Source: Dysgonomonas sp. HDW5A (GTDB lineage: Bacteria > Bacteroidota > Bacteroidia > Bacteroidales > Dysgonomonadaceae). Taken from it: a stretch of DNA of 64,000 nucleotides. The notes beneath the pieces are model-generated. The model was given only the letters and a program-made list of their open reading frames with translations. It did no database searches and was not told the origin of the DNA. Shown here in pieces: positions 13,368-15,956 of the stretch. The DNA lies in assembly GCF_011299555.1 (NCBI RefSeq), contig NZ_CP049857.1, positions 2,480,001 through 2,544,000 on the forward strand, written 5' to 3'. Position numbers and translations under genes: made by a program. Position 1 is the stretch's first letter; each line of letters opens with the position of its first letter.

Positions 13368-13811
13368 ATGCAAGTTATATTAAAAGAAGACGTTGCCAAT
13401 CTTGGTTACAAAGACGATGTAATAACTGTAAAAGATGGTTATGGACGTAACTACCTTTTGCCACAGGGGAAAGCTGTGATCGCTACAGGATCTGCTAAAA
13501 AGATGTTGGCTGAAAACTTGAAACAACGTGCTCATAAATTAGAGAAAATCAAACAAGATGCGCAAGACCTTGCTGCTAAACTTGAAGGCGTTACTCTATC
13601 TATCGGTGCAAAAACAAGTTCTACAGGAACAATCTTCGGATCTGTTACTAATATCCAAATAGCAGAAGCTTTGGAGAAAAAAGGTTATAGTGTTGATCGT
13701 AAGGTAATCATTATTAAGGAAGCTGTAAAAGAAGTTGGTTCTTATAAAGCTCTACTTAAACTTCACAAAGAAGTGTCAGTAGAAATTCCTTTCGAAGTAG
13801 TTTCGGAATAA
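13368..13811 (+). CDS. rplI: 50S ribosomal protein L9
   Basis: The 147-aa L9 binds 23S rRNA domain V. The N-terminal domain [17 protein letters not shown] with [14 protein letters not shown] is canonical, and the C-terminal domain [17 protein letters not shown] follows the connecting helix. It is the last gene of the operon and is closed by a GC-rich hairpin. An AGGAGG motif lies 10 nt before its ATG. Confidence 0.97.
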
Positions 13812-13830: not shown

Positions 13831-13865
13831 AAAATGGGCTGCTCTTTGAAAGGGCAGCCCATTTT
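13831..13865. terminator. Bidirectional terminator after rplI
   Basis: The stem AAAATGGGCTGC (13831-13842) pairs with GCAGCCCATTTT (13854-13865). It serves rplI and the convergent surface-protein operon, whose stop codon is 22 nt away. Confidence 0.88.
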
Positions 13866-13886: not shown

Positions 13887-14663
13887 TTATTGAATAAATT
13901 CGAGAATCAAAGAACATTGATCTACCATATTTGCATTACTGGCACTGGTTTCGTTAGTGCGTACTGTAATATTGTTTCCAGCCGTAAAAGTTAGAATAGA
14001 TACAAACGTGGGGCTTATTCCCCAATTGTTGCTGTATCCCACAATACTTCCGTTCCATACCGAAGTCCCATTTACATATATATGCGGAGCAACCAGGTAA
14101 GGATTGTTACCTACTCTGTTTGTTCCCCAGTGTCCGGTTATAGTAACCCTGTATCTTCCCGAGTACGGAACCTGAATAGTCCCCGTACTGCTATTTGCGC
14201 TTCCTTGTAAAGCATTTGAGATTACACTTGTGGTGAAGTTGGTTAATTGGCGAATTGTGGTCGATGTCTGATATGTTATAGGCCAGCTACCGTTGAGTAT
14301 GGCAAACCATGATCCTATAACCGATCCCCATGTACCTACTCCGTTTGCGTCCGACACGAGCATTTTACCTACTCCCTCTGTAGTGTCTGCTATTCTTATT
14401 GCTCCTCCTGCCGATTGGCTGATAATATCCAGCTTCGTTGTAGGGGCTATGGTTCCTATACCTACATTTCCCTGATGTGTTATAACTATATCGTCTGCAG
14501 CCTGAGCTGTTGAGATATTGCCTGTTGGAGGGTTTGTAGTTGCAGGAGTCGAAGCACCGTCTATGTGAAGTAGTGTTTTAGGATTTTCGGTGTTGATTCC
14601 TATTTGAGCCATGCATATATTGCATATCAATAGTGAAATGTATGTAAGGATTATTTTATTCAT
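13887..14663 (-). CDS. Secreted fibre-like surface protein, paralogue B
   Basis: The 258-aa protein has a signal peptide (1-19, ending ICMAQ). The N-terminal part carries repeats of the Bacteroidota adhesin/tail-fibre type: IGINTENPKTLLHID (about 21-35) and VGIGTIAPTTKLDI (about 67-80), followed by IRIADTTEGVGKMLVSD. The C-terminal 130 residues, rich in Ser, Thr, Asn and aromatics (VPYSGRYRVTITGHW), look like a beta-sandwich of C1q/TNF style. It is a paralogue of the upstream gene, 6 nt away, and must be co-transcribed with it. Function unknown; a surface adhesin is plausible. Confidence 0.7.
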   Translation of the reverse strand: MNKIILTYISLLICNICMAQIGINTENPKTLLHIDGASTPATTNPPTGNISTAQAADDIVITHQGNVGIGTIAPTTKLDIISQSAGGAIRIADTTEGVGKMLVSDANGVGTWGSVIGSWFAILNGSWPITYQTSTTIRQLTNFTTSVISNALQGSANSSTGTIQVPYSGRYRVTITGHWGTNRVGNNPYLVAPHIYVNGTSVWNGSIVGYSNNWGISPTFVSILTFTAGNNITVRTNETSASNANMVDQCSLILEFIQ

Positions 14664-14669
14664 GATTTT

Positions 14670-15413
14670 TTATTTTACAAATTCTACAAAGAGAGTTAGA
14701 TTTGATACCGCATTTGCATAACCTACCGAATTTTCTATACTGTAAACATCTAATACATCGTTTTGAGACAAGTATGCAAATGAGTAGTAGCTGACGTAAG
14801 GCGATGATGATATTTGCGTGTGTCCCAGTGAATGCGGTCCCCAAATGCTGCTGGTGTTTTTTCTGACAGCATAGTATCCGGCTATAAAATATCCGCTGGC
14901 TCTGTTCATTAGTGATGTGCCAAATAGGGTGAGTCTGTAAGCGCCTGTGTAGGGTATTGTTATGCTGCCGTTGGCGATGTTGATACTGCCCACACCGGGT
15001 TTGGATATGGTTCCACCCGTGAAGTTGATTTTTCGTGAGGCTGTTGTTGTCGTGTAAGGTAGATTTCCTCCTGTGAGCGAAGCATTCCAACTGCCTATTA
15101 TATTTACCCAGGTAACTGTACCGGTTGAGCTGCTGGTGAGCACTTTTGTAACGCCTTCACTTGTATCTGCTATTCGGATTGCTCCCGGAGTTGAACTTAT
15201 TATCTCCAGCTTTTTTTGCGGATTTATAGTTCCCACCCCTGTGTTGCCATAATTGTTTACAACAACATCGTCGCTAATATTGAGGCTGCCGTTTGTATCT
15301 CCACGGCTATCAATGTGCAGCAATCCCTGCGGGGATTGTGTGTTTATTCCCACTTGAGCTTGCATTAGCCCAATGAAGAATAATCCCATTATCAGTAAAA
15401 CGATTTTTTTCAT
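14670..15413 (-). CDS. Secreted fibre-like surface protein, paralogue A
   Basis: The 247-aa protein is counted from ATG 15413 (MKKIVLLIMGLFFIGLMQAQ, signal peptide). It has VGINTQSPQGLLHID and VGVGTINPQKKLEI repeats, then IRIADTSEGVTKVLTSSSTG, and a C-terminal domain with IPYTGAYRLTLFG that matches paralogue B in layout. The reading frame stays open without stops upstream of the ATG to about position 15745. A terminator hairpin ends about 40 nt before the ATG, and a (TC)8 tract sits about 300 nt before it. These suggest control at the leader. Function unknown. Confidence 0.7.
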   Translation of the reverse strand: MKKIVLLIMGLFFIGLMQAQVGINTQSPQGLLHIDSRGDTNGSLNISDDVVVNNYGNTGVGTINPQKKLEIISSTPGAIRIADTSEGVTKVLTSSSTGTVTWVNIIGSWNASLTGGNLPYTTTTASRKINFTGGTISKPGVGSINIANGSITIPYTGAYRLTLFGTSLMNRASGYFIAGYYAVRKNTSSIWGPHSLGHTQISSSPYVSYYSFAYLSQNDVLDVYSIENSVGYANAVSNLTLFVEFVK

Positions 15414-15451
15414 TGTTATTATTATATATTTAGTGTGATTTAAAAACAAAA

Positions 15452-15484
15452 GGCAGTAGCATGTAATCGCTACATACCACTGCC
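15452..15484 (-). terminator. Terminator/attenuator before surface-protein gene A
   Basis: On the minus strand GGCAGTGGTATG pairs with CATGCTACTGCC (12 bp, two G-U pairs, 9-nt loop) and is followed by TTTTGTTTTTAAA. It ends 39 nt before the ATG at 15413. Its place inside a leader points to attenuation. Confidence 0.7.
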
Positions 15485-15709
15485 GGACATAGTTGTACCC
15501 TGGGTAAACATCATCATCTTCTTCTTGCTGATTTTGAACGACAACAAAAAACAAATCAGTTACATGAAGGTGTGTACCGAAACAACTATTGATATATTTA
15601 TTGGGGAAATATTCGTAATGCGGTAAGCTTGTGTGCTTATGACGCGCAAACAAAAAAAGACGGAAGAGTCCGCCTAAAATACTTTCATTACTAACCTGCT
15701 TGTTGTTAG

Positions 15710-15817
15710 TTAGTCTCTCTCTCTCTCTCTTTCTAATATTTCAACGCATATATCCAAACCTAAATAGTTAAAATTTAGATCCTTGTAGACTGGTATGTTT
15801 GTTAAATTAGATGCCAT
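15710..15817 (-). CDS. Small leader ORF, 35 aa, ends in repeat tract
   Basis: ATG 15817 opens a 35-codon frame (MASNLTNIPVYKDLN..., ending EILERERERD) that stops at TAA 15712-15710, just after the dinucleotide tract. The alternating Glu-Arg tail is simply the translation of AG repeats. With one repeat unit fewer (or two more) the frame would run without a stop into the downstream secreted-protein gene. It lies about 30 nt after the predicted promoter, so it is the first ORF on the transcript. It may be a leader peptide, the N-terminus of a phase-variable fusion, or not translated. Confidence 0.35.
   Translation of the reverse strand: MASNLTNIPVYKDLNFNYLGLDICVEILERERERD
15714..15730. repeat. 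(TC)8 dinucleotide microsatellite
   Basis: Eight TC units plus a final T occur on the plus strand, read as AG on the transcribed strand. It is the longest simple dinucleotide run noticed in the window and a typical substrate for replication slippage. Confidence 0.9.
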
Positions 15818-15846: not shown

Positions 15847-15875
15847 CAAATATAGAAAATATTTTTAGAATCAAA
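15847..15875 (-). promoter_or_regulatory. Promoter of surface-protein operon leader
   Basis: The minus strand reads TTTG (15875-15872), a 17-nt spacer, then TATATTTG (15854-15847), matching TAnnTTTG. It is divergent from the tyrS promoter about 100 bp away. Confidence 0.65.
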
Positions 15876-15956
15876 ATCCTTTTATAAACATTGTAGCTGT
15901 ATGTGGGTTGTTTTTGTTTTATCAGCACATACTTTTTTAGAATCAAAAAGAAGTCG

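Follow-up and report, generated by a model that had tools for sequence, protein, structure and literature searches.

A recurrent leader with a variable AG tract is a probable phase-variable transcription attenuator of surface-protein operons in Dysgonomonas

An operon for secreted proteins in a 64,000-nucleotide stretch of the Dysgonomonas sp. HDW5A genome (the window, at its full length) is preceded by a leader that recurs in many copies in this and related genomes, on one plan: a promoter, a start codon, about 28 open codons, an AG tract, near stops and a terminator-like hairpin. Comparison of the copies reveals multicopy conservation, tract variation, a distinctive frame architecture, hairpin covariation and avoidance of one of the three phases of the tract, and on these grounds we regard the leader as probably a phase-variable transcription attenuator that would be ON in this third phase. 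The promoter would yield an RNA in which the short leader ORF runs into the (AG)n tract, and slipped-strand gain or loss of AG units would set the frame in which ribosomes exit the tract. In two of the three phases the ribosome would halt at once, the RNA beyond it would be left untranslated, and the hairpin or hairpins in this RNA would terminate transcription short of the surface-protein operon (OFF). In the third phase translation would continue through the hairpin to the start of the gene, thereby blocking the folding and allowing the operon to be transcribed (ON). We infer from the comparison four elements of this model, namely slippage inside a culture, the activity of the terminator, translation, and the identity of the third phase with the ON state.

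In the window the leader stands before a two-gene operon on the minus strand, which encodes secreted paralogues and is flanked by the divergent tyrS and the convergent rplI. The features of the locus are:

15988, plus strand: tyrS, the divergent neighbour
15847-15876, minus strand: Bacteroidota-type promoter 5' of the leader, recognized by sequence (TTTTG 15876-15872, TATATTTG 15854-15847)
15710-15817, minus strand: leader ORF of 35 codons, ATG 15817; in its present phase, the putative OFF phase, it ends just past the tract
15714-15730, minus strand: (AG)8A tract, the shortest among all copies, with an interrupting GAA before it
15706-15712, minus strand: staggered stops TAA 15712-15710 and TAA 15708-15706, which shut two of the three frames
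15414-15740, minus strand: third (read-through) frame, open from 5' of the tract, across both hairpins, to the gene
15658-15675, minus strand: hairpin 1 with a T7 tail, terminator-like (-8.8 kcal/mol, z -4.0)
15442-15484, minus strand: hairpin 2 (15484-15452) with a T-rich tail (15451-15442), terminator-like (-21.2 kcal/mol, z -6.2; covariation)
14670-15413, minus strand: first controlled gene, a secreted 247-aa protein with its signal-peptide ATG at 15413
13887-14663, minus strand: second gene of the operon, a paralogue of the first (44% identity)
13831-13865: hairpin terminator common to the end of the operon and the convergent rplI
13368-13811: rplI, the convergent neighbour

The original prediction had described the 35-codon ORF from ATG 15817 to the TAA at 15712-15710, right after (AG)8A, and a second frame open through the tract, past the ATG at 15413, to the stop at 14670. 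These coordinates are correct, with the openness of the second frame starting at 15740 in our analysis, and this third frame does enter the gene in frame in the window copy and end at the stop at 14670. Its arithmetic is likewise right: the two ATGs are 404 nt apart, and a change of -2 nt or +4 nt would bring both into one frame of 381 codons. That the arrangement is more than chance is borne out by the 18 copies of the leader in this genome, with 8-34 AG units. It had missed the multicopy nature of the leader, the two terminator-like hairpins, and the fact that the tract of the window copy is both the shortest and interrupted (8 units; GAAAGAG; ATTAGAAAGAG), the other copies having 14-39 units. 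We also noted, between the tract and hairpin 2 (15560-15530 in the window), a stretch like TTGTTTTGTTGTCGTTC that recurs in copies of all five species that we sampled.

A DNA search with the leader recovered, from this genome, about ten strong copies, with further ones in genomes of the same genus; the 35-aa leader used as a protein query recovered 18 here and between 23 and 45 in each of the four better-covered relatives. In all, 103 copies from five Dysgonomonas species, sampled with one genome per species, were analysed, 18 of them from this genome. When 84,980 species genomes were scanned with an exact pattern, 75 stretches were detected, in Dysgonomonas only (D. capnocytophagoides, D. macrotermitis, D. 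alginatilytica and sp. HGC4). A similar exact pattern, applied to 101 genomes of the family, had hits in only one of the fifteen genera, where each positive genome had 14-33 copies, and had none in the other 14. There were no copies in a sixth genome of the genus, which is only 62% complete, nor was a leader copy present in the viral contigs searched. A search of the Dysgonomonas literature for phase variation or simple repeats found no papers. Pattern searches of this genome for dinucleotide tracts placed 18 of the 19 AG tracts of at least 8 units inside such leaders, and other dinucleotide tracts amounted to one (AC) tract of at least 8 units and no (AT)8.

Several divergent or paired loci were encountered alongside these copies. 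In another genus of the family, contig C49 of genome G017 carries two related leaders (L211, at 112839 and 120318; MLFS.LTEKSVTGLIFNKLDLDIYAEKLERERE) with (AG)29 and (AG)8 tracts, followed by a strong hairpin with a T run; the stop of the long frame falls inside the hairpin, and neither leader is in phase with this frame. At G000:C1:2931802 (L210), an (AC)15 tract lies in a short ORF (MGKAKHIAF...ANTHTHTHT) 208 nt 5' of a SusC-like gene, and this is possibly a switch of the same type built on another repeat. Two copies of HGC4, L110 and L126, have identical leader starts and different sequence 3' of the AG tract, which can reflect either leaders exchanged at the tract or a join made at the repeat during assembly.

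The start of the leader is under evident constraint. The position of the start codon, mostly ATG with a few GTG, is constant in 102 of the 103 copies, and the 28 pre-tract codons, summed over all copies, contain 4 stops in the start frame versus 353 and 381 in the others. The length of the tract, in turn, ranges from 8 to 39 AG units, with at least 14 in 102 of 103 copies, and in a close pair of orthologues with 92% identical flanks it differs (24 and 20 units). Of 99 copies, 91 have the motif TAnnTTTG in the 75 nt before the leader, and just 3 of 81 have it between hairpin 2 and the gene, so that the leader promoter is probably the promoter of the operon. No clear signal of selection emerged from a codon test of the leader, dN/dS being 0.68 where the other frames gave 0.86 and 0.58; we do not claim a functional leader peptide. 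Across all copies, the pre-tract region is conserved mainly at the nucleotide level (AATTTTAAC...TTTAG.TTTG, GAAATATTAGAG), and several of its codons have fixed third positions while the first and second positions vary. This hints at an additional role of the leader as RNA or DNA, for which the better conservation of nucleotides than of peptide leaves room.

The frames beyond the tract were studied in the 81 copies with a resolved gene and hairpin. In 79 of these, two frames are shut within 40 nt of the tract. The third frame is open to the end of hairpin 2, also in 79 of 81 copies, and both exceptions stop within the hairpin. Given the tree of the region, whose branches sum to 14.5 substitutions per site, the third frame would be expected without selection to have received about 203 stop-creating substitutions, as against 2 copies that have a stop; the figure of 203 is a rough estimate, since the region is only partly alignable and carries structure. 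Constraint on the amino acids of this frame is weak (dN/dS 0.60 versus 0.85 and 0.83 in the other frames), and a one-base indel in a minority of copies alters the peptide (VVVQN versus CCRSK) while the frame stays open. The conservation of codons between tract and gene in relatives, to which the original prediction had pointed, is accordingly divided, being strong for openness and weak for the peptide. What is conserved would thus be the passage of ribosomes rather than a protein. The third frame meets the gene in different ways: the two are in frame in 23 of the 81 copies, in 37 the third frame stops 5' of the gene, usually 3-45 nt from the ATG, and in the remaining 21 it runs past the gene start in another frame. 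The joining of the third frame to the gene in the window copy is what chance gives, and is a coincidence.

Hairpin 2, which is conserved in all species, lies mostly 200-240 nt past the tract, with a median of -20.4 kcal/mol and a T-rich tail. Across 30 distinct copies, 98.2% of cells are paired, 9 of 13 pairs show two-sided changes, and 65 cells are changed on both sides against 21.8 in shuffles; none of 500 shuffles reached the observed number of cells paired, of pairs with two-sided changes, or the covariation score. When all 81 copies are considered, most pairs are kept in 79-81 of them. Hairpin 2 is maintained as a structure. Hairpin 1 is terminator-like in the group of the window copy, and its counterpart in the D. 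macrotermitis/D. capnocytophagoides group is without a T tail. Rfam searches at gathering and permissive thresholds returned tRNAs only; matches to PhrS (E 0.078) and the S15 leader (E 1.3) were far below cut-off and were rejected as indications of a known RNA family.

The phase of the leader relative to the third frame is strongly biased. Of the 103 copies, 101 have their leader outside the third frame, 53 in one and 48 in the other of the two remaining phases, whereas random phase would give about 34 copies in the third frame (probability of 2 or fewer, 1e-15), and among the 99 copies before surface-fibre genes none is in the third phase (chance 3.7e-18); both probabilities assume that the phase of the tract changes faster than the copies diverge, as comparisons of orthologues support, and gene conversion may have given copies within a genome a shared history. 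The set of 99 is the 103 minus three copies linked to susCD and the degenerate L095, which is without any frame open to the gene. Of the 103, the only copies in their own longest frame are L095 and L123. Random slippage alone would put about a third of the fibre-linked copies in phase, so the complete lack of copies in the putative ON state would call for a cost of expression in culture, or for another reason.

The three orthologous leaders linked to susCD precede a 1016-aa SusC-like gene followed by a SusD-like gene. Those at 3071697 in this genome (34 units) and L121 in HGC4 (26 units) are out of phase, and L123 in D. alginatilytica (39 units) is in phase, its leader ending inside the terminator-like hairpin. 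A divergent leader (MLNLSQQISNISLNFIAENLEVRIIFKRERER...) with (AG)29 was also noted on the minus strand in the region of G000:C1:191260 (L197), before a SusC/TonB-dependent receptor-like gene; this leader is in its longest frame, with its stop inside a 16-bp hairpin, and would therefore be ON.

Selection can act against the third phase only if ribosomes that begin at the start codon of the leader translate across the tract, and it can keep the third frame open only if the third phase is sometimes used. Together with the conserved hairpin lying in that frame, these two observations make an attenuator the simplest model. The original prediction had suggested that the tract could be a repeat-unit phase switch that fuses the leader to the surface protein, and the two parts of this proposal fared differently. 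Comparison gives strong support to the switch itself: tract length differs from copy to copy and among orthologues, the leader stands in a non-random relation to the read-through frame, and this frame has stayed open. Fusion as its purpose, which would give the protein a longer N-terminus or a different targeting, appears highly improbable. It is true that the window copy has one frame open from the tract through the whole gene and that 23 of 81 copies are joined in frame, but this is the level of about one-third given by random frames, with the other 37 copies stopping early and 21 overlapping out of frame; the gene retains its own ATG and signal peptide, and the intervening peptide is weakly conserved. 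It is the conserved terminator-like hairpin that favors attenuation over fusion as a reading of the locus.

Slippage might alternatively be non-genetic, with the ribosome or RNA polymerase slipping on the long AG tract, so that a fraction would arrive in the third frame and give low, steady expression; the tract length would then be no switch, and phase 0 in the genome would mean harmful over-expression and be purged. The lack of any in-phase copy among the 99 fibre-linked ones would fit such a scheme, as would the perfect re-pairing of long AG tracts after a 2-nt slip and the retention of at least 14 units in 102 of 103 copies. We nevertheless consider it unlikely, since the two out-of-phase states are equally represented (53 and 48) where programmed frameshifting expects one direction, the susCD orthologue is in phase in one species, and close orthologues differ in tract length. 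An ordinary regulatory uORF that has to end early, with a third phase that is simply deleterious and an AG tract that is either a by-product of mutation or an RNA-binding site, would agree with the mainly nucleotide-level conservation of the leader and with the near absence of the third phase. Yet it leaves unexplained why the third frame is stop-free through the hairpin in 79 of 81 copies, when one point mutation would shut it, and why all copies have long tracts while other dinucleotide tracts are almost absent, and we hold it to be very improbable. There is, finally, hardly any likelihood that the leader is a dispersed DNA element through which surface-protein operons recombine or undergo gene conversion, its frame features being incidental. 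The many similar copies per genome speak for it, and so does the shared leader start with different downstream sequence in L110 and L126 of HGC4, which can be an assembly effect; but the copies are placed in the 5' leader in the orientation of the gene, and their promoter, start codon, frame and covarying hairpin are all constrained.

The attenuator model, when applied to the window copy, suggests that this copy is currently OFF and, with its 8 interrupted units, looks nearly locked, switching rarely if at all. Of its orthologues beside tyrS, that of D. alginatilytica has 24 units and a GTG start, and that of HGC4 (L192) has 14 units, a GTG start and a TGA immediately 5' of the tract, owing to which it should be unable to switch. 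The genes downstream of the tyrS-side orthologues are intact, both of them at L192. Judged by these sequences, the tyrS locus resembles a switch on its way to being fixed OFF, and the window locus is for this reason not the best copy for testing the switch idea.

The leader is closely tied to one family of proteins. In this genome, 17 of the 18 leaders precede a gene for a secreted protein of what we call the 'QVGINT' family, and of its 42 members 30 are encoded no more than 6 kb downstream of a leader, often in tandem triplets. In these proteins about 100 N-terminal residues are conserved and the C-terminus varies; in the first gene product of the window, the conserved 'QVGINT' region is followed by a variable C1q/TNF-like C-terminal domain. 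Searches of Pfam, NCBIfam and PHROGs placed neither the leader nor the surface proteins in a family above cut-off, and gave weak tail-fibre matches for the second gene only. A structure model of the first gene product (pLDDT 78, pTM 0.57) matched, at modest TM-scores throughout, a fibre domain of Bdellovibrio, C1q/TNF-like heads of trimers and receptor-binding proteins of phages, and the product may reasonably be guessed to be a trimeric surface fibre whose tip varies.

Phase variation of surface proteins takes several forms in bacteria. In Helicobacter pylori, outer-membrane protein genes are contingency genes whose dinucleotide repeat lies inside the coding sequence of the gene. There too, dinucleotide slippage sets the frame ahead of a surface protein; in Dysgonomonas, by contrast, a separate leader carries the repeat, and fusion with the gene is no more frequent than chance would make it. 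In Bacteroides, surface loci are switched by invertible DNA, and phase variation in gut Bacteroidota is mostly attributed to DNA inversion. The Dysgonomonas leader would share with this system, in the same phylum, the stochastic control of many surface loci, but would act through repeat slippage, needing neither inverted sites nor an invertase.

The combination of a leader ORF and a terminator whose folding depends on the ribosome is that of the attenuators of amino-acid biosynthesis, such as E. coli trp (cited in PMC3894217), whose input is tRNA charging, whereas that of the Dysgonomonas leader would be repeat number. An amino-acid attenuator was rejected for the present leader, which has no conserved codon run besides the tract and has secreted fibre-like proteins or susCD downstream. 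The closest parallel is the pil1 locus of Streptococcus gallolyticus, where a change in GCAGA repeats extends a leader peptide into a stem-loop terminator and transcription rises (Danne et al. 2014, PMC3894217), as supported by hairpin-deletion, start-codon and chloramphenicol tests (PMC3894217). Both pil1/pil3 and the Dysgonomonas loci have a leader ORF with a tandem repeat whose number decides between a stop before the terminator and a run into it, and, as predicted in the case of Dysgonomonas, a majority state that is OFF and control over surface fibres. The Dysgonomonas leader has several features of the pil1/pil3 type, namely a leader ORF with its own promoter, a variable repeat, a repeat-dependent stop and a structured hairpin. 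It differs in having a 2-nt unit (AG) rather than a 5-nt one (GCAGA), a promoter of the Bacteroidota type, in another phylum than S. gallolyticus, and 14-33 copies per genome (by one exact pattern) against two loci. Read-through is predicted in one phase of three, as opposed to two of three for pil1; unlike in pil1/pil3, the read-through ORF extends to the gene start, the distance from the OFF stop to the main hairpin is about 200 nt instead of 39-49 nt, and some copies precede susCD. By analogy, the Dysgonomonas leader would work like pil1, with no claim of common descent and no expectation of sequence kinship. The kind of mechanism is thus already known from S. gallolyticus pil1/pil3, and what would be new is an AG variant of it expanded across a genus.

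The prospects are evenly balanced for the broader proposal that each genome carries about 20-45 independent attenuators, with those of fibre genes OFF by default and singly turned ON by slippage, and with others placed before operons for nutrient uptake (susCD), which together would constitute a portable, recombinase-free switch of Bacteroidota. If this is true, tens of copies of a translation-coupled switch that needs no recombinase would control, in each genome, some receptors for nutrients and a large family of surface fibres whose tips vary. This raises the question of why all 99 fibre-linked copies in sequenced isolates would be OFF. Repeat number alone would predict the state of expression, such that assembled genomes could be read directly as ON or OFF, and a mechanism described from two pilus loci of one streptococcus would become a recurring design.
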